A stretch of DNA of 64,000 bases, taken from Aliiglaciecola sp. M165. GTDB lineage: Bacteria > Pseudomonadota > Gammaproteobacteria > Enterobacterales > Alteromonadaceae. Shown piece by piece: positions 34,450-61,240 of this stretch (the stretch's first letter is position 1; each line of letters opens with the position of its first letter). The stretch lies in assembly GCF_007197995.1 (NCBI RefSeq), contig NZ_VKKH01000001.1, forward strand, positions 310,001 to 374,000. The letters are read 5' to 3'. The notes under the pieces were generated by a model, which saw nothing but the letters and a program-made list of their open reading frames with translations, was not told the origin of the DNA and did not search any database. The translations under genes were made by a program, and so were the position numbers.

Positions 34450-34716
34450 TTCATCAACTGCCTTTTCGGCAGAAACTCCTGTTTCATTGTGAAGTTCGAT
34501 TCGTCAGACATTTTTAGCTGCCTATGCGGCGGAACACTCGTTGCGATTAATTTGTGTTGTACCATTGATATTTTTAGCTGCCTACGCGGCGGATCATCCT
34601 GGCAATCTGGTCTGTCAGTGGGCGTGCCATTGAAAGCTGCCTATCCGGCGGAAATTGTCCCGGGAATGAAAAAATTTCCGGTTGTGATTTATTTAGCTAC
34701 CTGTCCGGCAGAAATA
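34450..34716 (-). CRISPR. Short type I-F CRISPR array, five divergent repeats and four spacers
   Basis: Read on the minus strand, downstream of cas6: 28-nt repeats at 34689-34716, 34629-34656, 34570-34597, 34510-34537 and 34450-34477, with spacers of 32, 31, 32 and 32 nt. Each repeat has the I-F layout of 5-nt stem, 5-nt loop and stem followed by CTNNNNAN. No two repeats are identical. The second to fourth have CCGCC opposite GGCAG, putting a C-A mismatch in the Cas6 hairpin. The last has a perfect CTGCC/GGCAG stem but a diverged 3' handle (TTGATGAA). The final spacer matches yigI. Confidence 0.93.
34478..34509 (-). other. Homing spacer matching the 3' part of yigI
   Basis: This last spacer aligns without gaps to 60802-60771 (yigI coding sense), 23 of 32 bases identical. 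Mismatches are at spacer positions 3, 6, 7, 12, 16, 18, 24, 27 and 29. Positions 6, 12, 18 and 24 are bases that type I Cascade flips out and does not read. Positions 3, 16, 24 and 27 fall on third or synonymous codon positions. It lies between the two most dissimilar repeats of the array. Confidence 0.93.
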
Positions 34717-34742
34717 TACAACGCATAAATATGTCAAAATTA

Positions 34743-34771
34743 AGTATAGAAAGCATTGGTAAATCTGAAAA
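34743..34771 (-). promoter_or_regulatory. Possible promoter of the CRISPR array
   Basis: On the minus strand TTTTCA (34766-34771) and TATACT (34743-34748) are 17 bp apart, with the -10 element 27 bp before the first repeat. It would overlap the cas6 stop region and allow the array to be transcribed separately from the cas operon. Judged by eye. Confidence 0.4.
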
Positions 34772-34775
34772 GATC

Positions 34776-35381
34776 TTAATCTAGATTTTTAGGGACCGAT
34801 GCTTTCCGGCTTGATTTATTCGACAAACCATAAGAGGTATAATTCCCATAGGTAACGTTTTGCGCCATTTCTAATTGGATATTTAGACTGAAATTACGAT
34901 CACTACTCTTGCTGTTCATTGGTATTTTGTGGAAATGTGGGAATACTTTCTCACTACTAGAAAGATAAGCTGCATTGTAGTTCTCCCCACGCTGCTTAGC
35001 TCTTCTGGCGCATCTTCTCAGTTTGCGTCTTACACCTGCTGGCGTTAGTTCATCAACAGCTTGATTTCGAGAAAACATTATTTCTTCCGACCCATTCTCA
35101 GGAACAGGTTTTAATGCAGAGATTTCGAAATACTCTAAATCTTGCATTTGTTGATAGTAATGTTGGTCAATTAACAAGTCGATACAAGCACTATCTACCG
35201 ACACAAAGGCAATAGAGTTTCCAGGTGATTCATCAGACCAATCAGGAAAGGTCACACCAATTGAGTTCAATCGGTGTCGACAATTGACTCCATGGAGCAC
35301 TTTCAGACACTTGCCAATTAGAAAGTTATGATTGCTATCGGCCGGGATAAAAGTAATTTTTCGATAGTAGCGAGACGCCAT
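34776..35381 (-). CDS. cas6: Cas6f (Csy4-like) crRNA endonuclease
   Basis: The 201-residue protein cuts the precursor crRNA at the repeat hairpin and stays bound to its 3' stem. The N-terminus aligns with Csy4: YYRKITFIP, then KCLKVLHGVN with His30 at the catalytic His position, then SIGVTFPDWSD. An arginine-rich helix (GVRRKLRRCARRAKQRGENY, about residues 115-134) is the hairpin-groove binder. It starts directly after the cas7 stop (TAGATG) and is the last gene of the tniQ-cas8/5-cas7-cas6 operon. Confidence 0.93.
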   Translation of the reverse strand: MASRYYRKITFIPADSNHNFLIGKCLKVLHGVNCRHRLNSIGVTFPDWSDESPGNSIAFVSVDSACIDLLIDQHYYQQMQDLEYFEISALKPVPENGSEEIMFSRNQAVDELTPAGVRRKLRRCARRAKQRGENYNAAYLSSSEKVFPHFHKIPMNSKSSDRNFSLNIQLEMAQNVTYGNYTSYGLSNKSSRKASVPKNLD

Positions 35382-36413
35382 CTATTTGCTTCCTAAACTG
35401 AACAATCCACCCTTTACCAAATTCGCGGCAATAAAATGCGCATCGTTCAATTCCGATGATTTCATCTTTTTCTTGGATTTTAATCTGCTGTTCAATTGTT
35501 CGAGGCCACTTAGAAGGGTATAAAAATCTTTCTTGGATTCAGGATGCCGATAGACCGTTGCCCTATCTCTATCAACTGCAAAACTACCTACCCTCACTGG
35601 TATATCTGCCCCCTCAAACCAATCGTCAATGCTCGCTATCGCAGCCCCTATCTTATAAGCGCCAATAATCGCCGTGCGTTTTCCTTCCACTATCGTGTTT
35701 TGATATGTCCTGCTGCGTTCTAACTTGTTCGCTTGTTCAACAAACGCCTGACTGGGGTAAATTTCGCTAGCCAATGGTAATGATAATTCTGCCGTTACCT
35801 CTAAAAAAAGATACTTCTTGGGGTCTACTAAAGCATTTTCAAACTCGTTTACAAGCCCATCGAATTCAGTAATCTCATCAATCCAATTTGGTTCGAATCG
35901 TTTCCGGTTCACCCCTTTTATTGAACACTGTAATCCTCCTGAACTCTGTATTTTGATTGTTGTATCAAGCGTTCTTTGATTTCGCCACAGCCAGTTACCA
36001 CTCAGCACATTGTTCAGATATCGCTCTGCCAGATATCTGTATCCGCCCAATTTACGATACTCAGCAGCGAAATTAGTCAGTAAACTTCTAACACCGTCAT
36101 CATTACAGGCTCTCGGCTCAATTGAACTCGCATCTACGTTAAGAGAGAATTTACATAAGGTGTGCTTAGCATCTGCGGGTGCATAACAATAGTCAATTGT
36201 GTGAGGGTTTCCTTCAGCTAACTTTTTATTATCCACACCCTTTTTCAGACTCATATCATTAGCAAATGCTTCGCTAGGCCCACCTTTCTGCCCGAGAATT
36301 TTGACCGTGTTAATTTCTAATGGCTTTTGATTGCCCTGTTCATCTACTGAATAGAATACTGCAATACCAGGCGATATTGATCGTTGATAACTTAGTCTGT
36401 TTGGTAGCCTCAT
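35382..36413 (-). CDS. cas7: Cas7f (Csy3-like) Cascade backbone protein
   Basis: The 343-residue protein forms the helical backbone on the crRNA. It begins LPNRLSYQRSISPGIAVFYSVDE, as in I-F Cas7, and carries LRYL-type segments including GGYRYLAERYLNNVLSGNWLWRNQR and VFRHPESKKDFYTLLSGLEQL-like YRHPESKKDFYTLLSGLEQ. It lies 12 bp after cas8/5 and abuts cas6. Six copies are expected per complex. Confidence 0.93.
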   Translation of the reverse strand: MRLPNRLSYQRSISPGIAVFYSVDEQGNQKPLEINTVKILGQKGGPSEAFANDMSLKKGVDNKKLAEGNPHTIDYCYAPADAKHTLCKFSLNVDASSIEPRACNDDGVRSLLTNFAAEYRKLGGYRYLAERYLNNVLSGNWLWRNQRTLDTTIKIQSSGGLQCSIKGVNRKRFEPNWIDEITEFDGLVNEFENALVDPKKYLFLEVTAELSLPLASEIYPSQAFVEQANKLERSRTYQNTIVEGKRTAIIGAYKIGAAIASIDDWFEGADIPVRVGSFAVDRDRATVYRHPESKKDFYTLLSGLEQLNSRLKSKKKMKSSELNDAHFIAANLVKGGLFSLGSK

Positions 36414-36425
36414 ATTTAGTTATCT

Positions 36426-38360
36426 TCAAATTTTAGAACCCAAATATAAGCTAGTTGATGTTTCACTGTAGTGCCAAAAAAAGCGCTCTATATTTCCAAA
36501 TGAAGCAATACAATTCAATTGGACGCCTGCCAAAATAGGTTCAGCAAATGCATGGACTGGATCATCTGAAGCACTATTCTTTTTGAAAGGTGTTTCGAGA
36601 TAGTGATAACCAACACATGCGATATTGAGGTTGTACGAAACAGACGTTTTATCCAAGAAATCGATAAAATTAGTGGTACTCAAGGAATTAAAAGAAGGCG
36701 TTATCCATTTCCCATTCTTGACTGGGATCGCGTTTACCGCCGATTCGAAACTGTGATGGGTGTTTATTCCCTCTAGTTCAGAAAGTGGAATATGAACCGC
36801 ACCACCACATATTTTTTGCGGTAACGCTGCCAACACCTCTTCTCGTTGCAGTATCGCACTAGTTTTAATGACGAGACTCAGGGCGAAGTCACATTGTCTG
36901 GAATCAATTATTGCAGGTGATCTAAGCTGTTTTTTGGAGATTTGAACCTGCTCTTTGGTTAAGCCCCGTTTATGGAAACTATATTCATGCATGCAAATAG
37001 CAAATTGCTCAAACCCAGCAGATAAACCAAATCTACTATCGAGTTGCCTTTGGAGATTATGTATAAAGCCAAAAATGCCGATCATAGAAGGCAAGCCAAC
37101 CAAATAGGCACAGCTCTCTGCATTGGCATTAGAAACTCTAAGGCCAGGTAAAACAAGATGCGTATGTTTTTGCTGCGGTATTACTAACGGATAATCCTCC
37201 TTTTCGTTTTCAAGGATTATTTTGAATTCCTGTTCGACTATCTTGATGAAGGTCGGGTTGTAAGCGATATCATCTGTACTTTTTAAGCGAGACAGATCTG
37301 CATGGAAAAGTTGTGTGATTTGCTTTGACGGGAACTCGGATTCCAACAATTGTTCTAGAGACTTTCGATTGAAAGACATCCAACGTACCAGCATTGCTCC
37401 AAGTTTAGCCACTAACTCTTTATACCGCTTTTTCTTTTTATTCTCAGGCAAAAGCCAATCCCTACTTGAGGATAATGAGTGTAAAATAGCCAAGTTCTCT
37501 GCCGTCAGCCAGGAACTTTTTTGAGTATCTTTTGTGTGCTTACTATTGAGCCCTTTTGGCAAACTTTTTAGAACTTTGATTTTTCCTCCGACACAAGCCG
37601 GGAGTGAGCCAACACTGGAAGACCTAGGACAATACATGGTTTCCGACTGGCGAAAATTGGAAACAGACCAAGAGTGAATTGCAACCTGAACAATATGAGA
37701 GGGGACGGGCGTCAAACAAACATATCCATCTGAATGTTTCGGAAACCGAAGGTTTGTCAATTGATGACTAAGATATTCAGATTCAGTTTGATTTATTGGG
37801 ATTTGGGACAACTCGTTTCTTATCAGCTTAAGATCTTTTTTAAACATCCCCGATTCAATCAAAGATTTCGTAAATGAAATGTTCTCGCCTATGATAGCCT
37901 CACCTAGCGTTAGCAGCTCTCCTTGCCAAACAAAGTCAGCACATAGAAACGTCGCATAATTGATATCAGCGGAATTCTGAGACCAGCCCAAACGACTACT
38001 AATTAGTTTTGAAGAACTAAAGCAGCCTTTCGGTATAACACCGATTGGAGACAGGCGAATGGCCCCTTTTGCACGATAATCTGGATACTTCAGATTGTGA
38101 GTGTGTCTATATCTAAACGTTTTTATACAGCGTTGAATCCAATTCTTATCCCTTAGCTTTGCTCTTGCATCATTTGAATCAAAGACATTGTTTATTAGTG
38201 ACAGCTTCCAGGTTAAATTCGCTAAAACGACACACGCTAGTTTTTCATTTCCTGTGACATCTAAAGGAGGAGTAATAGGAGAAAGAGCCTTTTTCCATGC
38301 CACGTTTCGGTCTGTGTGATTTTCAATATTAAGTAACGACGTTATCTCGTTTGAAGCCAT
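36426..38360 (-). CDS. cas8: Cas8f-Cas5f fusion protein
   Basis: This protein of about 644 residues is the single large-subunit fusion seen in I-F3 transposon Cascades, in place of separate csy1 and csy2. It should read the PAM and hold the crRNA 5' handle. The N-terminal half carries the Cas8-like helical region, with the Cas5-like part after about residue 320 (LVLPGLRVSNANAESCAYLVGLPSMIGIFGFIHNLQ is Csy2-like). The ATG at 38360 lies two bases after the tniQ stop. A GTG nine bases upstream would overlap tniQ by 7 bp. Confidence 0.9.
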   Translation of the reverse strand: MASNEITSLLNIENHTDRNVAWKKALSPITPPLDVTGNEKLACVVLANLTWKLSLINNVFDSNDARAKLRDKNWIQRCIKTFRYRHTHNLKYPDYRAKGAIRLSPIGVIPKGCFSSSKLISSRLGWSQNSADINYATFLCADFVWQGELLTLGEAIIGENISFTKSLIESGMFKKDLKLIRNELSQIPINQTESEYLSHQLTNLRFPKHSDGYVCLTPVPSHIVQVAIHSWSVSNFRQSETMYCPRSSSVGSLPACVGGKIKVLKSLPKGLNSKHTKDTQKSSWLTAENLAILHSLSSSRDWLLPENKKKKRYKELVAKLGAMLVRWMSFNRKSLEQLLESEFPSKQITQLFHADLSRLKSTDDIAYNPTFIKIVEQEFKIILENEKEDYPLVIPQQKHTHLVLPGLRVSNANAESCAYLVGLPSMIGIFGFIHNLQRQLDSRFGLSAGFEQFAICMHEYSFHKRGLTKEQVQISKKQLRSPAIIDSRQCDFALSLVIKTSAILQREEVLAALPQKICGGAVHIPLSELEGINTHHSFESAVNAIPVKNGKWITPSFNSLSTTNFIDFLDKTSVSYNLNIACVGYHYLETPFKKNSASDDPVHAFAEPILAGVQLNCIASFGNIERFFWHYSETSTSLYLGSKI

Positions 38361-38362
38361 TG

Positions 38363-39559
38363 CTACCACCGTGAAATAAACACGTTACTGTGGGAGTTAT
38401 CCGTTTGAAATTTAGCTAACCATAGACAAAAAACATCTCCCAGGGACAACACTCTCCAATTTGCGTTTAAAACTGAGTTAGCCTTCATTCTGGATTTAGT
38501 TTGTAGTTCACCTTGGTCAACTAAAACAGCTATTTGCTCTACTGATGTACCCAAAATAATTGCTGCTTCTATACTGTTTAGCTTAAGGTCACTCAACAGA
38601 CATTCAGGTTCGAAAACATGTTCCTCTAGATAACGCACAATCTCCTTCAACACTATGTTTTCTGACAAATTGGTACTGGGTAGCCGAGAAGCTTGTATCA
38701 ATAAAAGCCCAAACACATCTTTAAAAGACAGCTGATTGAAGGGTTTAAGCGCATACTCCTTTGAATGCGCCAGTTTACAGTTTAAATAGCTACGCAAACT
38801 ATCTGGCCATTGTGCGAGAAACAGGTGAAGTTGTTCGGAATCAATGTCCTTCCCATCATTGAAAGTTTCCTGCCACCATAAACATATCCCCCATGAATGG
38901 CTTTGAATCACAGCAGGCAGCCCCTCTACTAGTCTCCCTGATAGCCAATGTGCGATTTCCCGCTGAGGAGCAGACGAGACAGTTGCCTCCAAATCAGCCA
39001 AATTACTGCCGCACTTTGCACACTGTGCAATCTCGTGGCTGCTTAAATAGTTAATTTCCTCGCCACAGTCACAGTGATTACGAAGCAACACAGAATGCTC
39101 CGGGCAAGCTTCAAATAGTGAAAAGTGCCAATGCTGCCTGATGTATACGTTCTCTTTGATGCACGCCGGACAAATCGGTATCCCTTTGGTTCTTAAGAAA
39201 CGAAATGGAATAGTGACTCCGTTATTGAATACAGATGTGCGTTTTCTAGAAAACAATTGCCCTCCTCGAAACAAGGCCAACGATAGAAGTGGCAAAGGTT
39301 CGTGATTGGTAAGCTGACTCACAAGGCGCAAAGCATCCAGTCTTTTTGCACTGGATACATTGGCATGGCATATATTGATTTTTGATAATTCGCTCGGTAA
39401 AGCGGAATCAATTCCCCGAGTTGATTCGTTAAGATGAGATCTCACGCCAGCCCAAAACGACTGAAATTTATTGTAACCATTGTGGATACTAAGCCTTAGC
39501 AGGTAACTCTCAAGGCTTTCATCTAAAAAAGGCTTTGTCCTGATGAGCAGCATACTCAT
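38363..39559 (-). CDS. tniQ: TniQ target-selection protein
   Basis: The 398-residue TniQ/TnsD-family protein joins the Cascade complex to TnsC. It begins IRTKPFLDESLESYLLRLS and has zinc-binding pairs at about C130/C133 (CPACIKENVYIRQHWHFSLFEACPEH), C152/H155, C163/C165 and C180/C183. The C-terminal part ends SLGDVFCLWLAKFQ. Its length suits the short TniQ of I-F3 elements rather than the longer TnsD. First gene of the cas operon. A second Met at residue 3 is an alternative start. Confidence 0.93.
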   Translation of the reverse strand: MSMLLIRTKPFLDESLESYLLRLSIHNGYNKFQSFWAGVRSHLNESTRGIDSALPSELSKINICHANVSSAKRLDALRLVSQLTNHEPLPLLSLALFRGGQLFSRKRTSVFNNGVTIPFRFLRTKGIPICPACIKENVYIRQHWHFSLFEACPEHSVLLRNHCDCGEEINYLSSHEIAQCAKCGSNLADLEATVSSAPQREIAHWLSGRLVEGLPAVIQSHSWGICLWWQETFNDGKDIDSEQLHLFLAQWPDSLRSYLNCKLAHSKEYALKPFNQLSFKDVFGLLLIQASRLPSTNLSENIVLKEIVRYLEEHVFEPECLLSDLKLNSIEAAIILGTSVEQIAVLVDQGELQTKSRMKANSVLNANWRVLSLGDVFCLWLAKFQTDNSHSNVFISRW

Positions 39560-39716
39560 AAACCATGAAAAAAGAGGTATAAAGTTTAGTTGGTATTTTT
39601 ATCCATCGCTATTGCCAGAAGATGAGCAAACATTTTTTGAAAGACTTATTCATTCAAAAAATTTGCAGGGTTGATTTCAATTGAAGCGAGATGAGCTGGA
39701 CGGTTGTATTTTTAGG

Positions 39717-39923
39717 CTAAGGTAATAGGTCTTTCGCGTTGCAATCGAGAACATCGGCAAGCTGATACAGCATCTCCAACGTAATATTGGCTTCCCCTCT
39801 TTCGATTCTGCCCATATAACTACGATCAAGTTTTGCGCGCAAAGCTAGCCCTTCTTGAGAGAAGCCTTTTTCTTTGCGAATTAAACGAATCTTACTACCG
39901 ACTTCCCGAGCAATGTTGCGCAT
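39717..39923 (-). CDS. Xre-family regulator
   Basis: The 68-residue protein is a single helix-turn-helix domain (KIRLIRKEKGFSQEGLALRAKLDRSYMGRIERGE) of the Cro/C1 type, as often found beside tniQ in I-F3 transposons, where Xre proteins are reported to control guide expression. It is 157 bp upstream of tniQ on the same strand and divergent from the helicase operon. Two inverted repeats in the 123-bp divergent gap are candidate operators. Confidence 0.85.
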   Translation of the reverse strand: MRNIAREVGSKIRLIRKEKGFSQEGLALRAKLDRSYMGRIERGEANITLEMLYQLADVLDCNAKDLLP

Positions 39924-39977
39924 ATCTGGTCTTCTTTCAAAAACCAGTAATATCCTTAGTTGCGGCTTAACTATCCA

Positions 39978-40015
39978 CGGATTATAATCCGCATTTCAAA
40001 TTATCCTTTTGGATA
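39978..40015. promoter_or_regulatory. Inverted repeats, possible Xre operators
   Basis: CGGATTATAATCCG (39978-39991) is a perfect 14-bp palindrome, and TATCCTTTTGGATA (40002-40015) is a 5-bp inverted repeat around TTTT. Both contain ATCC/GGAT half-sites and lie between the divergent xre and small-protein genes. Binding by Xre is an inference. Confidence 0.5.
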
Positions 40016-40046
40016 CCTAAATAACAAGAACAAATAAGGTCAATGC

Positions 40047-40565
40047 ATGCCAAGAGGTATATACACGCCAAATGACAAACTCATTTCTGTTCTCAAATCA
40101 CAAGGTAGAAATAAGTTCAGAGTAACAACGATTCGCGATCTCTTTTCTCAATCCAATTCAGATGGTCGTTCTGGTAACGAACTACGTAGATGGGTTAACG
40201 GACAATTCAGAACGTTACTAAAACATGGGTACATAAGAATCACGTCCTCGTCAGGAGTCAGAAAAGAATACAAGAACACAGCTTCGATATTGGGTACTCA
40301 ACAGCAAGCATCAATCGCAGGTCATTCCAATGAAGGTGAAGTAATGAGTCAAGAAGTACTTGGTGTACTGAAAACGCGTCTACGCGAATGTAAATTAGAA
40401 ATGATCACCTGTTCGGGCGAAACCAAAGAGTATGAAGAACTAAGTAGATTGTTTCCAGAAATGCGTGATGCGTTGCAGCGCAAATTCAATTCGGCAAAAG
40501 AGAAAAACATCGAATACATGGGAAGAATGAAAGCACTCGAATTATTGATCGCAGAGAGTTCCTGA
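40047..40565 (+). CDS. Small protein paired with helicase (possible defence component)
   Basis: The 172-residue protein is not recognised. Its first 70 residues look like a winged-helix fold (FRVTTIRDLFS, ELRRWVNGQFRTLLKHGYIRITSSSGVRKEY). A Ser/Gln-rich linker follows, and the C-terminal part (about 95-170) is predicted helical with charged heptads (SRLFPEMRDALQRKFNSAKEK), likely a coiled coil. Its TGA stop overlaps the helicase ATG by one base, so the two are translationally coupled and probably act together. It could also be a DNA-binding regulator of the operon. Confidence 0.7.
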   Translation: MPRGIYTPNDKLISVLKSQGRNKFRVTTIRDLFSQSNSDGRSGNELRRWVNGQFRTLLKHGYIRITSSSGVRKEYKNTASILGTQQQASIAGHSNEGEVMSQEVLGVLKTRLRECKLEMITCSGETKEYEELSRLFPEMRDALQRKFNSAKEKNIEYMGRMKALELLIAESS

Positions 40566-41953
40566 TGGCTCTGAGAAAATGGCAAGCTGAGTGCGCCAAT
40601 CGTGCTGTTGATAAATATCTCTCGGGGCAACAACATTTTTTCTGTTTAGCTACACCAGGAGCCGGAAAGACTTTGATGGCAGCTGATGTAGCTAAAAAAC
40701 TCTTTGCACAATCGAAAATAGACTTTGTAGTTTGTTTTTCGCCGTCAATTGCTACAGCAAAAGGTATGCAAGCAACGCTTGAAGCTACCATTGAGGCATC
40801 TTTAAACGGGCAACTAGGGGCGAAAGGAACGTGTGTGACTTACCAATCCCTAAATCACAAAGATAACGCGTTCTGGAATGTGTTCCGTCAATTCAGAATC
40901 TTTGCAATATTCGATGAAATCCACCACTGCGGCGGAAACGATATTAACGATGCAAATGTTTGGGCTCAGCATATCCTGGCCAATGTTCAGTCACATGCTA
41001 AATATACTATGGCGCTTTCGGGCACACCTTGGCGTTCAGACAAACGTCCAGTCACGTTGTCGAGCTATTGCGACCAAGACGGAAGTATTTATTGTGATTA
41101 CGAGTATGGACTCACAGAGGCGATCAGTGAAAACGTATGCCGAATACCTCATGTAACCGTCATAGACAATAACCAAATCAGTGTCACATCAAACGAACAA
41201 ACACCAGAGATCTACGGCAGTATAAAAGATGTGTTGCAACAAACATTAATCTCTTACCAGGCAATCGTAGAATCTGACCCGATCATCGAGTTCTGTTTAG
41301 AGCAAGCAAACAAAGAGCTCAGGAACGTTCGGAGCAAAAACCCAAAAGCAGCAGGGCTTGTTGTCGCATCAACCGTGGAACATGCAGAAAAAATCGCTCA
41401 AAAATTGAAATTAAAATATTCCAAGTCTGTCGAAGTGGTCACTTACAGGAATACTGAAAGTGACTCGATTATCAGTCGTTTTCAGAATACAAATACTGAG
41501 TGGCTGGTTTCCGTTGGAATGGTTAGCGAGGGAACAGATATTCCCAGGTTGCAGGTTTGTTGCCATTTAACCCGGATAAAAACAGAGCTCCACTTCAGGC
41601 AAATCCTTGGACGAATAATGCGTTTAACTCACACAGACAAAAGCAAACGAGCAAGTTTATTTGCGCCGGCGCAGCCCCAACTTATCGAGTTTGCAAGACG
41701 GCTACTCCAAGATATTCCCTCACAAGCGGCGTCAATAAAGATACAAACTGACCCAACTACAATCAATATTTCGGAAGTAGCCGCAGTTGAAGACATTACA
41801 CCGTCAGAAACCCCTCAAGTCACCAATGTCTCCACCTTAAGTCTGATTGACGATGAATCTTCTTACCAAGACTTACCTACATTGACAGAAACCTTCCTCA
41901 GTGGATTGGGTTTTGATGGACAATTTTCAAAACACTCTATAGTCAACAGCTGA
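40565..41953 (+). CDS. SF2 DEAH-type helicase (possible defence component)
   Basis: This 462-residue superfamily-2 helicase has Walker A ATPGAGKT (29-36), DEIHH (117-121), motif III-like SGTPWR (152-157), a second RecA domain with SVGMVSEGTDIPRLQ (V) and FRQILGRIMR (VI). There is no nuclease or methylase domain, and about 80 C-terminal residues of low complexity follow. Family members occur in restriction and other defence loci. Cargo of mobile Tn7-like elements is often defensive, so this and the upstream gene may be a two-gene defence unit (inference). Confidence 0.75.
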   Translation: MALRKWQAECANRAVDKYLSGQQHFFCLATPGAGKTLMAADVAKKLFAQSKIDFVVCFSPSIATAKGMQATLEATIEASLNGQLGAKGTCVTYQSLNHKDNAFWNVFRQFRIFAIFDEIHHCGGNDINDANVWAQHILANVQSHAKYTMALSGTPWRSDKRPVTLSSYCDQDGSIYCDYEYGLTEAISENVCRIPHVTVIDNNQISVTSNEQTPEIYGSIKDVLQQTLISYQAIVESDPIIEFCLEQANKELRNVRSKNPKAAGLVVASTVEHAEKIAQKLKLKYSKSVEVVTYRNTESDSIISRFQNTNTEWLVSVGMVSEGTDIPRLQVCCHLTRIKTELHFRQILGRIMRLTHTDKSKRASLFAPAQPQLIEFARRLLQDIPSQAASIKIQTDPTTINISEVAAVEDITPSETPQVTNVSTLSLIDDESSYQDLPTLTETFLSGLGFDGQFSKHSIVNS

Positions 41954-45067: not shown

Positions 45068-45083
45068 TCGGAATTGCAATAAT

Positions 45084-51633: not shown

Positions 51634-51638
51634 AGTTT

Positions 51639-52571: not shown

Positions 52572-52631
52572 GCTTCCTTTTACCACAATCACTCATGCCA
52601 AATTAACCCAAAGTATTCGAGAGGTAGGGTT

Positions 52632-55600
52632 ATGATAGCCGCCATCCTAAAGCTTTCAATTGAACGACGAGGGATCATGCTATTGATGGCGCTTTTCATC
52701 GTCTTTTTGGGGATGTGGAGCTACCAAAAACTCCCTATTGACGCTGTGCCGGACATAACCAATGTGCAAGTACAGATTAATACTCAAGCATCAGGTTACT
52801 CACCACTTGAAACTGAGCAGCGGATAACGTTTATCGTTGAGACTGCGCTCGCGGGTCTGCCTAAGCTGTCCTACACGCGGTCGCTGTCTCGTTATGGTTT
52901 ATCTCAGGTCACCGCTGTCTTTGAAGAGGGGACGGATCTTTTTTTCGCTAGAAATCTGATAAACGAGCGTTTGGGTGTCATAAAAAGCCAGCTCCCCGAT
53001 GAAGTAGAGCCTGAAATGGGGCCTATTGCTACCGGTTTAGGTGAAATCTACATGTATACGCTTCGGGCGCTCCCCAGCGCTATACAAAAAAACGGTAACC
53101 CTTATGACGCCATGGCACTGCGAGAGCTGCACGATTGGGTTGTCAAGCCTCAGTTAGCGTTGGTGAAGGGGATCACCGAAGTCAACGCAATTGGTGGGTA
53201 TAAAAAACAGTTCCATATCAACCCTGATCCGCAAAAGTTATTACATTTTAATCTCAGTATCGATCAGTTGTTAAGTGCGATTGAGCGTAACAATACCAAT
53301 AGGGGGGCAGGGTATGTAGAAAAGGATGGTCAGCAAATTCTTGTCCGCTCCCAAGGGCAACTTAATGGAATAAGCGATATTGAGAATGTAGTAGTAACGG
53401 CTGAAAATACTGTTCCCATCAAAATAAAAGACGTGGCAAATGTCGCTATTGGAAAAGAGTTACGTACCGGTGCCGCGACTCAGGAAGGTGTTGAAACAGT
53501 ATTAGGTACAGCAATGATGTTAGTAGGTGAAAATTCACGTGCTGTTGCCATTTCTGTCGATGAAAAACTTGATCAAATTCAGGATAGTTTACCCGACGGT
53601 GTCATTGTTGAAACTGTCTATGACCGAACCACGCTTGTCGATAAGGCGATTGCAACGGTGCAGAAAAATCTTGTTGAAGGGGCGCTTTTAGTCATTGTGG
53701 TCTTGTTCGTTTTGCTGGGGAATGTGAGAGCCGCATTGATCACCGCTGCAGTGATACCTTTAGCCATGCTAGCTACGATTACAGGGATGGTACAAACAGG
53801 AGTTTCTGCAAATTTAATGAGCCTTGGGGCATTGGATTTCGGTTTGATCGTCGATGGCGCCGTCATTATTGTTGAGAATTGTATAAGACGATTATCCGAT
53901 GCACAAAGGCGAAACGGCTCCGTATTGGAGTTAAAAGAACGCTTGAGTCTTGTGTTTGATGCCACGAATGAAGTGATACGGCCAAGCTTATTTGGTGTGT
54001 TAATCATTACAATTGTCTATATCCCCCTGTTCACACTGACTGGTGTCGAAGGAAAGATGTTCCACCCCATGGCGGCCACAGTCATCATGGCGCTGCTTGC
54101 AGCAATGGTGTTTTCATTTACTTTAGTACCGGCAGCTGTTGCCATGTTCATGAAAAGCAAAGTGAGTGAAAAAGAAAGCCCTGTTATTGTTGGCGCAAAA
54201 TCGCTTTATCGACCTGTGTTGCTTATGGCGCTGAAAATACGCTGGTCTGTTCTAGTGTTTGCAATGGGGTTGGTGGGTATTAGTGTGTGGTTAGGCGGAA
54301 AGCTAGGATCTGAATTCGTACCTCAGCTCAACGAGGGCGACATTGCGTTGCATGCGATGCGTATTCCAGGCACAGGTATTGAGCAGGCAGTCAATATGCA
54401 AAAGCTATTGGAGGAAACTGTCATGGAATACGGTGAGGTTAAGACAGTATTTGCTAAAACTGGCACGGCGGAAGTAGCAACCGATGCCATGCCACCAAAC
54501 GTAACCGATACGTTTGTGATACTCAAACCGCAAAATGAATGGCCAGATCCAAGTTTGTCAAAGCAAGACTTTGTGGAAAAGCTAGAGGAAAGACTGCGAA
54601 GCCTGCCAGGGAACAATTATGAGTTCACACAACCCATCCAAATGCGGTTCAATGAACTAATAAGTGGCGTACGCGCGGATTTGGGTATTAAGCTCTATGG
54701 TGATGATCTTGACACTTTGTATTCCTCGGCAGCAGACATTTTACAGGTTCTCAATGGTATCGAGGGAGCTGCCGACGCTCGGCTTGAGCAGGTTGATGCA
54801 GTCCCGATATTTACTGTCGATCCAAAACCCATTGAACTCGCTCGATATGGCCTCGATACATCAGACTTGCAATTATGGCTAAGCGCCGCCATTGGTGGTG
54901 AGCCGGCAGGCTTACTATATGATGGAGACAGGCGTTTTGAGATTGCTATTCGCTATAGCGATGACATTCGAAACGATTTGGATCGGCTTGGGGATATCCC
55001 CATAACAACACCAGATAATCGGTTTGTTCCGCTAAGCGAAGTCGCTATTTTGAAATATGTATCAGCCCCCAGTCAAATCAGCCGTGAAAATGGCAAGAGG
55101 CGAATTGTTATCACAGCGAATGTCCGAGACCGAGATTTAGGCTCCTTTGTCGATGAAGCACAAAAAGCAATTGGCAGACAGGTCGACTTACCTGATGGTT
55201 ACTGGCTGGAATACGGCGGTACCTTTGAACAACTGCAAAGTGCCAGTCAAAGGCTTTCTATTGTCGTTCCCGCAACATTGTTCGTTATCCTCACTCTATT
55301 AGTGATTGCGTTCGGCTCAATTAAAGATGCGCTTATCATATTTACTGGCGTGCCTTTAGCACTCACTGGTGGCGTGTTTTCGTTGTGGTTGAGAGACATG
55401 CCTCTTTCTATTTCCGCTGCCGTAGGTTTCATCGCGCTGTCGGGCATTGCTGTGCTAAACGGTTTAGTCATGCTGTCATTTATTAAGCAACGATTGGCTG
55501 AAACGGGAGACTTGCTTAACAGCATAATAGACGGTGCACTCACACGATTACGGCCGGTACTCATGACGGCATTGGTGGCGAGCTTAGGATTCATACCCAT

Positions 55601-55742
55601 GGCTTTAAACGTCGGTACTGGTGCTGAAGTGCAACGACCGCTGGCCACGGTTGTTATCGGCGGGATCATTTCGTCAACACTACTTACATTGATAGTACTT
55701 CCGGTGCTTTTTCAGTTAGTGCACAAAAGAGACTCTGAATAA
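52632..55742 (+). CDS. czcA: CzcA-type heavy-metal RND efflux pump
   Basis: The 1036-residue inner-membrane pump has 12 helices and two large periplasmic loops. DFGLIVDGAVIIVENC in helix 4 is the heavy-metal-RND version of the proton-relay motif, with two Asp and a Glu, as in divalent-cation (Co/Zn/Cd) pumps rather than CusA. YDRTTLVDKAI and the C-terminal GIAVLNGLVMLSFI segments are typical. It completes a CzcCBA tripartite exporter. Confidence 0.93.
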   Translation: MIAAILKLSIERRGIMLLMALFIVFLGMWSYQKLPIDAVPDITNVQVQINTQASGYSPLETEQRITFIVETALAGLPKLSYTRSLSRYGLSQVTAVFEEGTDLFFARNLINERLGVIKSQLPDEVEPEMGPIATGLGEIYMYTLRALPSAIQKNGNPYDAMALRELHDWVVKPQLALVKGITEVNAIGGYKKQFHINPDPQKLLHFNLSIDQLLSAIERNNTNRGAGYVEKDGQQILVRSQGQLNGISDIENVVVTAENTVPIKIKDVANVAIGKELRTGAATQEGVETVLGTAMMLVGENSRAVAISVDEKLDQIQDSLPDGVIVETVYDRTTLVDKAIATVQKNLVEGALLVIVVLFVLLGNVRAALITAAVIPLAMLATITGMVQTGVSANLMSLGALDFGLIVDGAVIIVENCIRRLSDAQRRNGSVLELKERLSLVFDATNEVIRPSLFGVLIITIVYIPLFTLTGVEGKMFHPMAATVIMALLAAMVFSFTLVPAAVAMFMKSKVSEKESPVIVGAKSLYRPVLLMALKIRWSVLVFAMGLVGISVWLGGKLGSEFVPQLNEGDIALHAMRIPGTGIEQAVNMQKLLEETVMEYGEVKTVFAKTGTAEVATDAMPPNVTDTFVILKPQNEWPDPSLSKQDFVEKLEERLRSLPGNNYEFTQPIQMRFNELISGVRADLGIKLYGDDLDTLYSSAADILQVLNGIEGAADARLEQVDAVPIFTVDPKPIELARYGLDTSDLQLWLSAAIGGEPAGLLYDGDRRFEIAIRYSDDIRNDLDRLGDIPITTPDNRFVPLSEVAILKYVSAPSQISRENGKRRIVITANVRDRDLGSFVDEAQKAIGRQVDLPDGYWLEYGGTFEQLQSASQRLSIVVPATLFVILTLLVIAFGSIKDALIIFTGVPLALTGGVFSLWLRDMPLSISAAVGFIALSGIAVLNGLVMLSFIKQRLAETGDLLNSIIDGALTRLRPVLMTALVASLGFIPMALNVGTGAEVQRPLATVVIGGIISSTLLTLIVLPVLFQLVHKRDSE

Positions 55743-55960
55743 AGGTAAGTGGGCTTTTCTTCGTAAAGGAAGCCCACTAATTTGATACCTTTATAGGAGA
55801 GTAATAAATCTCAAACTAAGTATTGAAGATTCATCCTGGAATGGACAGGTTTGAGCGAGCTGTCCTAATTAAACGATCGCCTTATTTATTTCAGTAAAAA
55901 GGTGCAAAAGCCGAAGTTCGATTTTCATAGAATCAATGTGCCAATAACAAACCTGAAAGT

Positions 55961-56179
55961 TTAAGGATTATTGCAACAACTATTCCCTTCTTGAATAGGT
56001 GGGCATTTAACTGTGCCATAGGAGCAATAAACGCAACAATCACCTTTCAGCGGTTTCAGCAACGTTTTACAACTCGCACATTCGTAGTACCATTGGCAAG
56101 CATTTGTTGGCATGGTCTCATTTTTACTAAACCCGCATTCAGGACATGTAACCTTTGACTGCAGTTCTATACCTTGCAT
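55961..56179 (-). CDS. GDCCVxC domain protein, copy 2
   Basis: The 72-residue paralog of the protein at 46866 shares CPECGF, ASCKTLLKPLKGDCCVYCSYGT, KCPPIQEG and the final CC. It overlaps the merC stop by 13 bp and so is expressed with it. Two related copies in one element, each in a separate metal unit, suggest a general metal-handling part. Confidence 0.87.
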   Translation of the reverse strand: MQGIELQSKVTCPECGFSKNETMPTNACQWYYECASCKTLLKPLKGDCCVYCSYGTVKCPPIQEGNSCCNNP

Positions 56180-56556
56180 ATAGGCTCCTCAACTGGTTTT
56201 ACAATATCCAAAACGGATATAACGACCATCAATATGATCCCAAAGTAAAATAAGTACGTGCTCCAGTCATATATCCACAACGGGTACAGAGTTAACAACA
56301 CGGCAATTGGGCCAATTACACCTAAAATACCTCTTATCAAATGTTTATGTTGATACCAATTATACAAATTGGCCACCAGTGCAAGTGAAGCAAACAGAGG
56401 CAATAAGGTGTTAATCGCTATTCCCTCAAAAGGCGAAAGGAAACCAAGCCCCAAAGCTGATGCTAGGGAGCCGAGAGCTGGAAAACATGCAGTGCAGCTA
56501 AGTGCCGCGAGCCAAACGCCACCAGAGCCTACTTTATCTAGAATTTTACTTATCAT
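56167..56556 (-). CDS. merC: MerC-family membrane protein
   Basis: The 129-residue, four-helix protein has LSCTACFPALGSLASALGLGFLSPFEG, whose CxxC in helix 1 is the mercury-binding site of MerC-type importers. The ATG at 56556 has GAGGTAG upstream. An in-frame start 39 bp earlier would fall inside the promoter. MerC brings Hg2+ into the cell for reduction, yet no merA reductase is in the transposon. Confidence 0.85.
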   Translation of the reverse strand: MISKILDKVGSGGVWLAALSCTACFPALGSLASALGLGFLSPFEGIAINTLLPLFASLALVANLYNWYQHKHLIRGILGVIGPIAVLLTLYPLWIYDWSTYLFYFGIILMVVISVLDIVKPVEEPICKV

Positions 56557-56577
56557 AGCTACCTCGTTTTTTAAGGT

Positions 56578-56609
56578 AGTATAAAGGCCGTACATAAGTA
56601 CGGAGTCAA
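56578..56609 (-). promoter_or_regulatory. MerR-type promoter of merC
   Basis: On the minus strand TTGACT (56604-56609) and TATACT (56578-56583) are 20 bp apart. The spacer carries a perfect dyad CCGTACTTATGTACGG (56588-56603). This is the long-spacer arrangement activated by MerR proteins. It lies just after the stop of the regulator gene, which runs in the same direction, not divergently. Confidence 0.92.
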
Positions 56610-56612
56610 TGG

Positions 56613-56990
56613 CTAATTAAGTGAATTTATAATTGGGCAGGAGTTGGGGTCTTGGTTGGCCTTGCAAGAATCTGTCATCTCTTTAATCACCCCTTCCAAT
56701 CGCTGTAAATCAGCAATTTTTTCTCGAATTAACCTGAGTTTCTGTAACCCCATGGATTCAACATCGGCGCAGTTACCGCTGAGGGACATAAGCGAGGCGA
56801 TTTCATGGAGCGTAAACCCCAATGCTTTAGCTTTTAATATAAACTTAAGCTGATTGGCAAGGATATTATTGTATAGCCGATAACCGTTTTCAGGTTTCAG
56901 TGGTTGCACAATAAGCCCTTTGCGCTCATAGAAACGGATTGTTTCAACACTAATATCCAATTCTTTAGCTAACTTGCCGATAGTTTTCAT
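56613..56990 (-). CDS. merR: MerR-family mercury-type regulator
   Basis: The 125-residue regulator has the MerR helix-turn-helix (TIGKLAKELDISVETIRFYERKGLI) and three metal cysteines in the Hg(II)-type arrangement (SGNCADVES, DSCKANQDPNSCPII). It is upstream of and in line with merC. The promoter between them has the MerR dyad and a 20-bp spacer. It should activate merC and the GDCCVxC gene on Hg(II), though the ligand is inferred. Confidence 0.88.
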   Translation of the reverse strand: MKTIGKLAKELDISVETIRFYERKGLIVQPLKPENGYRLYNNILANQLKFILKAKALGFTLHEIASLMSLSGNCADVESMGLQKLRLIREKIADLQRLEGVIKEMTDSCKANQDPNSCPIINSLN

Positions 56991-57105
56991 AAACAGACTC
57001 TTTCAATCAACAAGCAATATTGTACCATTGATTAACTGGACCGTGATCTCTTTAGACCGATAAAATGAGAGGAATGCAAACAGATGATAGCTAAGTAATA
57101 TATTA

Positions 57106-58113
57106 CTAACGGGTAGCGAAAATATCTCCTACTGTGAATTGACGACTCGATTTACCGACAAGGATTTCGCCCGGTTTGTTTTTGAAATCTTCCCAACCTA
57201 TATCCAAGTCCGGCTCGTCAATAGCGACGTCATTTATATGACTCACGTTAAAAGGGTTAACGGTATCCGAGTAATTTCCATTTATCTTATCAATGGCACT
57301 TTTAAAGTGTTCCGACGTAATACAATTGGCGGACATTAGGAGTGCATCCCGTGATGCTTGGTTAAGTAGCTCACGAAGTTTGCGCAGATTACCCTTTGAA
57401 TGAGAATAAAGTCTTAGTGCAACCTCCCTGGTTTGCAGACTACTACTGTCAGGGAATGGCAACGCCAAATCAAACACCTTCAGAAATTGCAGATACACTT
57501 TGCGTTCTGATTCTTCTTCAACTCTAAATGGTGGTAGCCTTCTTTTAAACAGCATCCGATCGTTTAACTGAGAGTTCACGTCAAGAATTACTGAACTGTA
57601 AGGCATTCCTACTAGCACAACAGGAATATTGGAATCAATAATAATGGTTTTTAGCCAGTCTGCTGCTCTATGTAAGACCTTGTTGTTTTTTCGCTCAATC
57701 AAATGTTGAAACTCATCAATAATTATTAGCTCAACACCACAACTCACCAGTAAACAAATCAGTTTAATTCTGAGTTCTTCAAGATCACTGCTTACACAAC
57801 TGAAGGGGTCTCCCAAATCAGTTAACATTTTCTGAGAAGCACGAACTGGTGTGGCGTTTTCAGGCAGACTTGTAAAAAAAACGGGGATTTTGGTTCTGTC
57901 AGCCAACTCCTTTCTTGGGTAGTTTTCCATATATTTTCGAATAAGTGTCGTTTTCCCTGAACCAGTGTTTCCCGTAATAAACATACACTGCGCTTCTCCA
58001 CCCAACTTTGAATCTTCTTTGCATTCATCGATTTCGCACATCAAGGATTCAAGGTAAGGGCCAGCAATAAACAGCTCTCTGACCAACTTTAATTTTTCGC
58101 CAAATTCAGACAT
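57106..58113 (-). CDS. tnsC: TnsC AAA+ ATPase
   Basis: This protein of about 335 residues is the AAA+ regulator linking target recognition to TnsAB. Near its N-terminus Walker A is GNTGSGKTT, and Walker B is ELIIIDEFQH about 80 residues later, followed by a sensor segment PVVLVGMPYS. The ATG at 58113 has GGAAG upstream. A GTG at 58122, overlapping the tnsB stop by 4 bp, is an equal candidate. Third gene of the tnsABC operon. Confidence 0.95.
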   Translation of the reverse strand: MSEFGEKLKLVRELFIAGPYLESLMCEIDECKEDSKLGGEAQCMFITGNTGSGKTTLIRKYMENYPRKELADRTKIPVFFTSLPENATPVRASQKMLTDLGDPFSCVSSDLEELRIKLICLLVSCGVELIIIDEFQHLIERKNNKVLHRAADWLKTIIIDSNIPVVLVGMPYSSVILDVNSQLNDRMLFKRRLPPFRVEEESERKVYLQFLKVFDLALPFPDSSSLQTREVALRLYSHSKGNLRKLRELLNQASRDALLMSANCITSEHFKSAIDKINGNYSDTVNPFNVSHINDVAIDEPDLDIGWEDFKNKPGEILVGKSSRQFTVGDIFATR

Positions 58114-58118
58114 CCTAA

Positions 58119-59969
58119 TCACTTCCTAACCTGACTAGATGTCCATTCGGAGATATCAACGTCTTCATCCCAACTTTCTTCTGAGAAAGGGATTTCTTTT
58201 TTTTCATTACGTTCAACGGTCTCGCTTGTATTTGGTGATGGCAGCTCCCGTCTGCGATCTGCTTCTAAATACCTCCCTGCTCGAACACGATTTGTCACAC
58301 TGATCTTTTTACGTTTTCCAGTTGCCATCTCTGCCATGCAACCTTCCACTATATCGATAATTTCCGAACGTGCCTGGACTACATCTTGGTGGTTGTAATT
58401 CGCCTTGATAAATTCTTTTGTATATTTACGATGAAGATTGTGCTGCCAAAGAGTGAGTCCGTTCGCATAATCAAAATCAACGGCAGGCACAAAAAAATAT
58501 TCTTTTTTGTCATTATCCAATACAACAATTCGACCCAAGTTATTAGGGTCTTGCTTGGCAATAACCCTATGGTCTCCATACCTTCCACGATAAGATGCCA
58601 GTCTGTCGCTATGATATCGAAGCTTGTCTTTGGTTATTCCTTCTTTACGTAGCTTAGGTTCAAACCTGCGCCCCAATTTAAAATCCAACTCATCTATCGA
58701 ACCATTGTACGTGGCTGGAGGGAAAGATTGTGCCGCAACTGACCAGGACAAATTCGGCATATTTGTCCAACGCGCATTGGGGTCCTGTTGATAGTCGTCA
58801 ATGATCCATTTATGTATTAGAAGGTTTATTTTAGAGAGCGAAATGACAGCATTTTTTTCAGGGTCATAGTCGTCCCGCTCGAAAATGTTGGGGAAAGTTT
58901 TCCCAGGGGGACTAGCTAATAAGCGAGAATTGACAGTTCCAAAGAAACGTTCCACAGAAGCTTTTAGGTAGGGCTTCTTAGTTGGGTTTTTGCCAACATG
59001 CATACCCAACTCTGCACACGCCACTTTAAAATCTTTGTCATCAAATTCTCGCCCATTATCTGTAACTAATAATTCGATTAGTCCCGAACATATCCATTCA
59101 TTATTTACCTGAGGATAATTCTCTTTGACATAGCTTTTAGGCAATATTGCATTTTTTAGGGCGTGGCTTACTGAAACAAAACTGGGTGGTTCAAACCCTA
59201 AATAAAAACCCACTACCGACAAGCTGAAAGAATCTATCAACATCGTTAACCACGGGCGTCCCATAGGTATGAAATAGATATCGTCAATAACGAACAAGTC
59301 CAGTCTTGTGTGGTCAACTTCGACCCTTTCCAGAATTCTTGTTGTCTTTATTTTTTGGCCAATTGCTCGAAATTCATTATTGGCAGCGGTTAGCCCTTTT
59401 CTCGCTTTTATTTCCTCAAAAGGCGTAATTTTTCCCACTCTCAAGCGTAACGCTTCTGACGAAATACATTGCAACTGTGTGTCATTGCCTTTGTTGTATC
59501 TCAAGACCAAAGTTTCCAGAAAACGATGGCCCTCTGCAAGATTTGGTCTCTCTGCAGACATAATTCTCCCTATTGCTTCTGCTATTAGCGGCTCTAAAAG
59601 AGGATCCGCTTTGAAGTTCGAGTTTCCTTTCGTTATTTGCGGTACGAGAGCTACGATATCAAAATCAGAAGCTTTAAACAGTGACCACCATCTTGCCAAC
59701 GTTCGCCAACTGGGGACATCATTGCCAAATTCCGTGACCAGATCAGGCAATAAGGGTGTGATAGTTTTTTCTGTGAAACTTCTGACTCCAGCTTTTAAAA
59801 GATATTTAATAAGATTTAGTCGATGTATTGCTTGATCACGTTGAATGGTAGTAAAAACAGAAAGCGCCCTAAAAGTTGCAGGCTCAGTTGGTTGCAACCC
59901 ATCTGGCATTGAACAATTTTCTTCGACAACTAGATCGAAGAGTCCTGAAAACGTGTCTTCGGAAGCCAT
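58119..59969 (-). CDS. tnsB: TnsB DDE transposase
   Basis: The 616-residue transposase cuts and joins the 3' ends. The N-terminal helix-turn-helix domains precede a retroviral-type integrase core with the DDE residues at about D219 (VEVDHTRLD), D304 (LLVTDNGREFD) and E340 (KASVERFFGTVN). A C-terminal basic region follows. The ATG at 59969 overlaps the tnsA stop by one base (TAATG). A TTG 15 bases upstream is less likely. It binds the repeats at both ends. Confidence 0.96.
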   Translation of the reverse strand: MASEDTFSGLFDLVVEENCSMPDGLQPTEPATFRALSVFTTIQRDQAIHRLNLIKYLLKAGVRSFTEKTITPLLPDLVTEFGNDVPSWRTLARWWSLFKASDFDIVALVPQITKGNSNFKADPLLEPLIAEAIGRIMSAERPNLAEGHRFLETLVLRYNKGNDTQLQCISSEALRLRVGKITPFEEIKARKGLTAANNEFRAIGQKIKTTRILERVEVDHTRLDLFVIDDIYFIPMGRPWLTMLIDSFSLSVVGFYLGFEPPSFVSVSHALKNAILPKSYVKENYPQVNNEWICSGLIELLVTDNGREFDDKDFKVACAELGMHVGKNPTKKPYLKASVERFFGTVNSRLLASPPGKTFPNIFERDDYDPEKNAVISLSKINLLIHKWIIDDYQQDPNARWTNMPNLSWSVAAQSFPPATYNGSIDELDFKLGRRFEPKLRKEGITKDKLRYHSDRLASYRGRYGDHRVIAKQDPNNLGRIVVLDNDKKEYFFVPAVDFDYANGLTLWQHNLHRKYTKEFIKANYNHQDVVQARSEIIDIVEGCMAEMATGKRKKISVTNRVRAGRYLEADRRRELPSPNTSETVERNEKKEIPFSEESWDEDVDISEWTSSQVRK

Positions 59970-60595
59970 TACTTTGAACACCAAATAATCGAATCGGTAC
60001 TGATAGGCATGTTCATGTCCAATTTCAGTAAATCCAGTGCAACCAGACTAAGGATATCCGGGAAAATTTCTCTGTAGTTCTGTCCCATCCTATGAATTAA
60101 ATCCAGAATACTAAGCCGCTCAACGCGGCCTAGAATAGTTATAGCTTGATACTGCTGGTCGCTGAGATCATTTTCAGCAGAATGATAGCGATGCAAAATC
60201 TTAAGGTTATCAAGTAAGGGGTACACCCTAATGTTATTTTCTGTAATTAATTCAAGCCTTCCTCCCAAGGCTTCTGCAGCCACCTGCTTGGCCTTGAATT
60301 CAGATTTGAATATTTCTGACAATGTTTTTTTATAGAGTTTAACTTCATAAAAAGTAGATGGGAGTGTTTCAAGACGAGCAAGATAATCAGGTGTATAACT
60401 GCGGATTTTTCCGTCTAGCTCGTATTCAAAGCCTATGGGTTGAGATTCAAATTCGAGAACTTTAGCGGAATATTCGAAGTGAAAACAGGCATCAAACTCT
60501 AACGTGGATTCAACTTCAATGAAGTCATCCATTTTAAAACTGGCAAAGCGATGAATATTGTTCACCGCAGATTTGGTAAGTTTACGTTTTTTCAT
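59969..60595 (-). CDS. tnsA: TnsA endonuclease
   Basis: The 208-residue protein cuts the 5' strands so that the element moves by cut-and-paste. The N-terminal catalytic domain has the restriction-endonuclease-like residues in FHFEYSAKVLEFESQ, YTPDYLAR and FYEVKLYKK (Glu, Asp and the Lys of the E-x-K). A C-terminal domain that contacts TnsC follows. It is the first gene inside the yigI-side end, 57 bp before the first TnsB-type site. Confidence 0.95.
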   Translation of the reverse strand: MKKRKLTKSAVNNIHRFASFKMDDFIEVESTLEFDACFHFEYSAKVLEFESQPIGFEYELDGKIRSYTPDYLARLETLPSTFYEVKLYKKTLSEIFKSEFKAKQVAAEALGGRLELITENNIRVYPLLDNLKILHRYHSAENDLSDQQYQAITILGRVERLSILDLIHRMGQNYREIFPDILSLVALDLLKLDMNMPISTDSIIWCSK

Positions 60596-60652
60596 GTCTA
60601 GCGCTTTATTATTGTTGTAAACTTACTTAAAAGTAGTCTATTTTTTGAACTA

Positions 60653-60720
60653 TGCCAAGGTATGCTTGTTGCTTATGTCAACGTATGCTTGGATTATGTC
60701 AAGGTATGCTTGGATCAACA
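60653..60720. repeat. Transposon end, tnsA side, with three TnsB-type sites
   Basis: Sites TGCCAAGGTATGCTTGT (60653-60669), TGTCAACGTATGCTTGG (60676-60692) and TGTCAAGGTATGCTTGG (60697-60713) are set 6 and 4 bp apart, then ATCAACA ends the element at 60720. The tight spacing contrasts with the other end and is typical of the Tn7 right end. Confidence 0.92.
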
Positions 60721-60725
60721 GTGGG
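60721..60725. repeat. Target-site duplication, yigI-side copy
   Basis: GTGGG follows the last transposon base and matches the copy at 34280-34284. It lies two bases beyond the yigI stop codon. Confidence 0.93.
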
Positions 60726-60727
60726 CA

Positions 60728-61240
60728 CTAACCAATCATGTATGTCGCCGTGCCGAAAGCGATATGAACTCCTTTCTCGTTGTGTAATTCCATTCTGCAA
60801 ACCGCGACTTTTTTACCTTTGCGGATCACTTCTGCTGTCGCAATAAATTCCGTCCCTTTACCAGGCCTGAGATAATCAACTCGCATATCGATGGTGCCGA
60901 CATTGGGAAGGGCTTTTTGAAATTCTGCAATGGAAATAGATTCGTAATCTTTAATTGCGTACAAAATGGCCATCAAACCACCCACAGTATCCAAGATCGC
61001 TGCCGTCACGCCACCATGTAAGATTTTATGGATAGGGTTGCCCATGAGTTTGTTGTGCCAAGGTAGACGTATTTCTACTTTGTCGTGGCTCAGTTGATTG
61101 ATTTCCAAGCCTAGTAGTTGATTAAAAGGCATGCGCTGGCTAAACAGCTGAGTAACATGTTCAGAAAGTGCAGCGGCACTGAGTCGAGTTTCGCTGTTGG
61201 TTTCTGTTGGTACAGTAGAATCCTGAATTTTTTGTGTCAT
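60728..61240 (-). CDS. yigI: YigI-like hotdog acyl-CoA thioesterase (CAST target gene)
   Basis: The 170-residue PaaI-type hotdog thioesterase has QRMPFNQLLGLEI, KILHGGVTAAILDTVGGLMA (the HGG loop and catalytic Asp) and the C-terminus LHNEKGVHIAFGTATYMIG, as in E. coli YigI. It should hydrolyse medium to long acyl-CoA. It lies just before recQ, near rarD, as in E. coli. The transposon starts 7 bp past its stop, so the protein is whole. Its region 60771-60802 matches the last CRISPR spacer. Confidence 0.92.
   Translation of the reverse strand: MTQKIQDSTVPTETNSETRLSAAALSEHVTQLFSQRMPFNQLLGLEINQLSHDKVEIRLPWHNKLMGNPIHKILHGGVTAAILDTVGGLMAILYAIKDYESISIAEFQKALPNVGTIDMRVDYLRPGKGTEFIATAEVIRKGKKVAVCRMELHNEKGVHIAFGTATYMIG
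60771..60802 (-). other. Protospacer of the homing guide within yigI
   Basis: These 32 bases of the yigI coding strand encode the segment VCRMELHNEKG near the C-terminus and match the spacer at 34478-34509. The two bases before it are CG (60804-60803), a relaxed form of the CC PAM of I-F systems. Fifty bases (60770-60721) separate it from the transposon end. Confidence 0.9.

Follow-up and report, generated by a model that had tools for sequence, protein, structure and literature searches.

What brought a transposon to the 3' end of the thioesterase gene yigI, where it leaves the gene intact? The question arises in Aliiglaciecola sp. M165 (Alteromonadaceae), in a stretch of 64,000 nucleotides, hereafter the window. 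The transposon is a CRISPR (clustered regularly interspaced short palindromic repeats)-associated transposon (CAST) of type I-F3, on the I-F3a side. It very probably homes to the 3' end of yigI with a CRISPR RNA (crRNA) that its own array encodes in the last spacer. A sequence-only reading had seen guide, target and resulting insertion captured together at this locus. A second element is present at yigI in a congener, genome G121.

Guide, target and insertion site

The argument is carried by six features, given in window coordinates:

34285..60720, 26,436 bp: whole type I-F3 CAST with the ends TGTTGATCCAAGC and GCTTGGATCAACA
34280..34284: left copy of the target-site duplication GTGGG
60721..60725: right copy, likewise GTGGG
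34478..34509, minus strand: array-distal spacer, the yigI guide
60771..60802, minus strand: protospacer in yigI, codons V-C-R-M-E-L-H-N-E-K-G, with CG at 60804-60803 on the side of the protospacer adjacent motif (PAM)
60728..61240, minus strand: yigI (hotdog thioesterase), the attachment gene, open frame intact

The spacer at 34478-34509 (crRNA on the minus strand) and the yigI coding strand at 60802-60771 share 23 of 32 bases. Mismatches are located at guide positions 3, 6, 7, 12, 16, 18, 24, 27 and 29. Positions 6, 12, 18 and 24 are every-sixth positions. Of the mismatches at read positions, those at 3, 7, 16 and 27 leave the residue encoded by yigI unchanged; the one at 29 does not (K>T). 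The guide translates into V-stop-R-I-E-L-H-N-E-T, with the stop coming from an unread sixth position. Recalculation reproduced the coordinates, the identity count and the mismatch list of the sequence-only reading exactly. Its four every-sixth mismatches were found again, and the synonymy it had claimed holds for four of the five mismatches at read positions. The motif V-C-R-M-E-L-H-N-E is present in 12 of the 17 yigI genes compared; the other five differ by one or two residues.

Between the 3' (PAM-distal) protospacer end at 60771 and the terminal transposon base at 60720 lie 50 bp, and the right end of the element is nearest to the target. Distance and orientation had been read correctly. 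I-F3 elements insert about 47-51 bp past the protospacer (PMC12452197).

The G121 element of 23,433 bp is likewise located 3' of yigI. It lies 51 bp from the protospacer and has the duplication TACCC on both sides. Its last spacer shares 25 of 32 bases with its own yigI and differs from the window spacer at positions 12, 18, 21 and 28. The proteins of the two elements are 92-99.6% identical (TniQ 92%). The PAM is relaxed, with CG in the window and CA in G121; VpCAST prefers 5'-CN (PMC12774636). G121 repeats the arrangement with a different spacer variant, spacing and duplication, and this supports the RNA-guided reading of the insertion site. In all six CAST-less congeners examined, yigI continues past its stop and no transposon end is present there. 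What the DNA itself shows is the match of guide and target, the geometry, the duplication, a second occurrence in another host and the congeners that are free of the element. The 9-mer TGTTGATCC near yigI in G009 was dismissed; it lies about 1 kb beyond the protospacer.

Raw identity alone is not decisive, since about 1.5 matches of 23/32 are expected per genome (binomial estimate, 0.27 per base). For 22 of the 27 read positions, as matched in yigI, the same estimate is 0.05 per whole genome. The sequence-only reading had proposed comparisons with shuffled spacers and with the whole genome. The genome scan covered the window and 400 kb of the same genome (464 kb; 926,698 positions on both strands; about 10% of 4.6 Mb). 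There, the next best match was 21/32, at two places, with at most 18 matching read positions. At the 16 permitted placements beside both element ends, one of 400,000 shuffled spacers reached 23 matches, and the other three spacers of the array reached at most 16. Identity at the right place and in the right orientation is the decisive evidence. Mismatches are enriched at every sixth position (p 0.015); this is not counted as separate proof, because it is confounded with codon third positions.

Fit of the guides

Several observations weigh against homing by the present guide, in addition to the expected number of chance matches. The window guide shares 23 bases with its own yigI and with that of G121, 24 with G058 and 25 each with G183, G164, G144 and G093 (G164 and G144 are identical at the protospacer). 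G009 has the lowest value among the congeners (21). The guide therefore fits five of the six CAST-less congeners (24-25) better than its own yigI. The G121 guide behaves alike, with 27 matches each in G058, G183 and G093, 26 in G164/G144 and 25 in its own host. Five of the nine mismatches of the window guide are at read positions, and those at 27 and 29 are in the PAM-distal segment. The G121 guide has mismatches at 28-30; of the four at its read positions, two are non-synonymous. Among 32 distinct elements whose array could be recognised, two carried the yigI guide, and both come from one genus. Synteny of the left flank is partial: the MscS-like gene past yigI was matched in G144 and G183 only; the stretches fetched from G121 and from the remaining four CAST-less congeners gave no match.

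In VpCAST, mismatching all of positions 25-29 at once abolished transposition, and this segment is needed for licensing (PMC12774636). The insertion was not necessarily directed by exactly this guide, because its fit to its own yigI is not the best and the mismatches at 27 and 29 are in the licensing segment. It may be retained as a generalist for use in other hosts, or may have drifted after landing. The guide could even be a relic that once directed the insertion here, has since drifted and no longer works on the host yigI. The five read-position mismatches, with 27 and 29 among them, and the better fit to other species' yigI speak for a relic. We consider it possible and rather doubtful. 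Between the two elements, the guide is kept better (28/32, 88%) than the adjacent left end (114/165, 69%; Fisher p 0.033). Only two of 27 read positions differ, which has a binomial p of 0.004 at the left-end rate. The better conservation of the guide suggests that it is still under selection, perhaps for other hosts.

Separate insertions or common ancestry

Homing would be seen twice if the window and G121 elements were separate RNA-guided insertions, and the comparison points to this. The main argument is the different, intact duplications together with the different spacing. Further support comes from the DNA identities and from the six congeners that have yigI without the element. The two largest blocks of element DNA are 97.0% and 97.9% identical; the host recQ DNA is 70.1% identical.

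A single ancestral yigI insertion, inherited vertically by both species, would make G121 no second event. Genus, gene and side are the same and the spacing is nearly equal. The YigI protein of G121 is the second closest to that of the window (83.3%) after G058 (86.2%), which weakens independence. This explanation is nevertheless improbable in view of the two 5-bp duplications, of 50 versus 51 bp, and of element DNA at about 97% versus 70% for recQ. Seven of the nine genomes of the genus have no TniQ match; six of these seven were examined for yigI and G199 (59% complete) was left out. In a RecQ segment, G121 is the most distant congener (72.3% vs 79.6-83.0%), and a longer RecQ match gives 75.8% vs 76.8-79.8% for the other congeners. 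None of 200 bootstraps of a congener protein tree pairs the two hosts. The tree is poorly resolved, with one of seven inner branches well supported, so that it cannot prove independence by itself.

Least probable of all, and close to negligible, is another route to yigI (untargeted or protein-guided) with a coincidental spacer match: 23/32 is not rare genome-wide, but the shuffled spacers, the same arrangement in G121, the mostly codon-synonymous mismatches and the lack of a second TniQ among the proteins scanned (see below) speak against it. On this evidence, chance match, vertical inheritance and protein-guided insertion were each rejected.

Proposed mechanism and the attachment gene

From known I-F3 biochemistry we infer the protein steps, with the crRNA as driver. 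TniQ-Cascade loaded with the array-distal crRNA would bind the conserved V-C-R-M-E-L-H-N-E codons. Integration by TnsC and TnsAB would follow about 50 bp beyond the PAM-distal protospacer end, with the right end of the element nearest. The phase of the guide places each unread sixth base at the third position of a codon, by which one guide could serve the yigI of several species. Insertion would take place 7-8 bp after the yigI stop codon and leave the gene intact. In 8 of 8 congeneric genomes examined, the distance from the protospacer end to the end of the stop codon is 43 bp; an insertion at about 50 bp therefore lands 7-8 bp past the stop and yigI stays unbroken.

The gene was identified by NF008675/PRK11688 (210.5 bits vs a cut-off of 107). 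It is adjoined by recQ; the order in E. coli K-12 is yigI-pldA-recQ. Before the insertion, the gap between the stops of the MscS-like gene (34279) and yigI (60728) would be 7 bp. Neither frame is disrupted by the insertion.

Organisation of the element

Starting at the yigI side, the order is tnsA, tnsB, tnsC, cargo, Xre regulator, tniQ, cas8/5, cas7 and cas6, followed at the left end by a CRISPR array with five repeats and four spacers:

34293..34388, plus strand: left-end TnsB-type repeats, starts 34293, 34347 and 34373, wide spacing (TnsB assignment by analogy)
34450..34477, minus strand: terminal diverged CRISPR repeat, hairpin CTGCC-GAAAA-GGCAG
34510..34716, minus strand: remaining CRISPR array, four repeats and three further spacers
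34776..35381, minus strand: cas6 (Csy4)
35382..36413, minus strand: cas7 (Csy3)
36426..38369, minus strand: cas8/cas5 fusion
38363..39559, minus strand: tniQ
39717..39923, minus strand: Xre-type regulator, C.AhdI-like
40047..56990: cargo region
57106..58122, minus strand: tnsC, TniB/AAA match
58119..59984, minus strand: tnsB
59969..60595, minus strand: tnsA
60645..60712, minus strand: right-end TnsB-type repeats, starts 60712, 60691 and 60668, tightly packed

The composition is that of an I-F3 element: tnsA, tnsB, tnsC and tniQ, a minimal I-F Cascade (cas8/5 fusion, cas7 and cas6), a 5-bp target-site duplication and TGT/ACA ends. Neither cas1 nor cas2-3 nor a TnsD-like second TniQ was found among the 24 scanned of 31 element open reading frames (ORFs) of at least 100 amino acids; the other seven are overlapping or antisense ORFs. 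The host genome has one TniQ match at E <= 1e-20. Each end has three of the six TnsB-type repeats, and the tightly packed end faces yigI. According to a review, tightly packed repeats mark the attachment-site-proximal end in many Tn7-like elements (PMC11406308). The terminal repeat at the homing spacer is diverged from the other four repeats, as expected for an atypical guide. For the other three spacers, a plasmid search gave weak matches at E 0.7 or none, with no convincing target. Spacer 2, the only one searched against phages, had no convincing target there.

Relation to known systems

The best solved relative of TnsB is annotated 'IF3A Tn6677 TnsB' (431 bits). TniQ scores about 255 bits to Tn6677 and VpCAST vs 219 to 7u5d (AsCAST complex), and Cas8 scores 336 bits to VpCAST and 293 to Tn6677 vs 178 to 7u5d. 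All chains of the 6lnb group we take to be Tn6677; the 6pig entry states Tn6677. The Xre regulator has C.AhdI as best match, and a C.AhdI-type Xre is a marker of I-F3a. The PDB entries 9vtp-9vtr and 7u5d were assigned to their complexes according to PMC12774636. Judged by best scores without a tree, this places the element as a standard type I-F3 CAST on the I-F3a (Tn6677/VpCAST) side.

I-F3a elements mostly home to guaC or yciA, the window element to yigI. The crRNAs of I-F3 are mostly limited to guaC, yciA, ffs and rsmJ, which is a tendency and not a definition (PMC11406308). These four sites account for 94% of I-F3 homing, which is read there as a sign that elements seldom acquire new guides for chromosomal sites (PMC12774636). 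Rare sites include cobO and others (PMC12452197), and yciA, IMPDH and signal recognition particle RNA sites have been described (PMC6360697). The literature search, which did not extend to the tables of sites in Petassi 2020 and Klompe 2022, gave no yigI attachment site; the word yigI is absent from the main texts of PMC12452197, PMC8649781, PMC10293859, PMC6360697, PMC11406308, PMC12774636 and PMC12150760. The yigI attachment site is probably new; the kind of system and the mechanism are already known. Recurrence in G121 makes the site solid.

Tn6677 (VchCAST, I-F3a, guaC site) and VpCAST (I-F3a, yciA) have the same gene set, including TniQ, the fused Cas8/5 and TnsB. They share the C.AhdI-like Xre, the spacing of about 50 bp, the 5-bp duplication and the right end beside the target. 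The homing target of VpCAST, yciA, is a thioesterase gene too, but a different one. The window guide is located directly at the array end, whereas the single yciA spacer of VpaI-7 stands in an atypical array of its own (PMC12150760). Tn6900 (AsCAST, I-F3b; rsmJ/ffs for I-F3b) has the same overall machinery and different attachment genes, and its TniQ and Cas8 score lower against the window proteins than those of Tn6677 and VpCAST. It shares the diverged repeat at the homing guide (PMC11406308). Shewanella I-F3 CASTs at cobO and other genes are likewise outside the four main sites, and the Xre regulators of these rare-site CASTs are classed as I-F3b (PMC12452197). The next closest Cas7 found (63%) belongs to a CAST of Paraglaciecola hydrolytica S66. 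Unlike the window guide, its last spacer has no match to yigI; in its own genome, this spacer finds itself only (at most three mismatches at read positions).

The diverged guide and left end

Divergence between the two elements is concentrated in one piece (window 34285-34569 vs L065/L026), which comprises left end, guide and terminal repeat (23/28 identical) and breaks off inside the CRISPR array. When the adjoining cas genes (34646-36446) are divided into 18 bins of 100 bp, 16 are 95-100% identical and two have 78 and 90%. The right end has 97% in the bin 60575-60675, and tnsA has 82-96% per bin. Two leader-side spacers are common to both arrays (the second differs by one base), and the middle ones differ. 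The simplest reading suggests recombination within the array, by which the same core came to carry another piece of guide and left end. Tentatively, guide and left end may form one exchangeable module that is swapped via CRISPR-repeat recombination, with the transposition and Cascade genes (about 97%) unchanged. If true, CASTs would use the array to alter or renew their docking address.

Distribution

TniQ matches at E <= 1e-20 were present in 16 of 395 genomes of the family, the own genome included. G121 holds the only close relative (92%); the others have at most 44% identity. A class-level search at E <= 1e-60 returned only the window itself (1/369). The TniQ relatives in plasmid records (9 records) were all distant, with at most 34% identity, and viral contigs contained no relative of the Cas7.

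Both yigI guides were scanned against 40 fetched cas-side loci (L020-L040 and L086-L104). Only the G121 locus L026 matched, with 32 to its own guide and 28 to the window guide; all others had at most 21. No recognisable array was present in five of 14 family loci (L028, L029, L030, L032 and L037) and in three of 19 order loci (L086, L094 and L104), at least in L030 and L037 due to short contigs. L025 and L093 are the same element and were counted once. A recurrent last spacer, starting roughly with AGGYCNGGAAGWAA, was observed in L034, L035, L089, L091, L092 and L095-L100. These arrays presumably have a homing guide in common that is directed at another site.

Cargo

The cargo genes encode a helicase-like protein, a TIR protein with a short argonaute, an FTCD_C protein, cytochrome b561, a MerR regulator, cation efflux and RND efflux proteins and merC/merR. 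At 42166-45067, the TIR protein (best PADLOC model Aga_TIR-PNTD1-PNTD2) is paired with a short class I argonaute (pAgo_I), which we take to be a SPARTA-like defence system. This pair had no match in the G121 element. An FTCD_C-domain protein (45030-45845, E 3e-21) follows the argonaute gene with a small overlap. The region 46158-56990 carries metal-related cargo, namely merC, MerR regulators and genes for cation and RND efflux. G121 shares the block 46044-55787 at 97.9% identity, but neither merC nor its merR.

Implications

The locus offers a natural test of mismatch tolerance in homing guides. It makes yigI another candidate landing site for programmable insertion. For the transposons, yigI appears to be a further safe site that has served at least two insertions in different hosts. 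The logic of the site combines a coding motif conserved close to the 3' end, unread guide bases at codon third positions and an insertion just past the stop codon.

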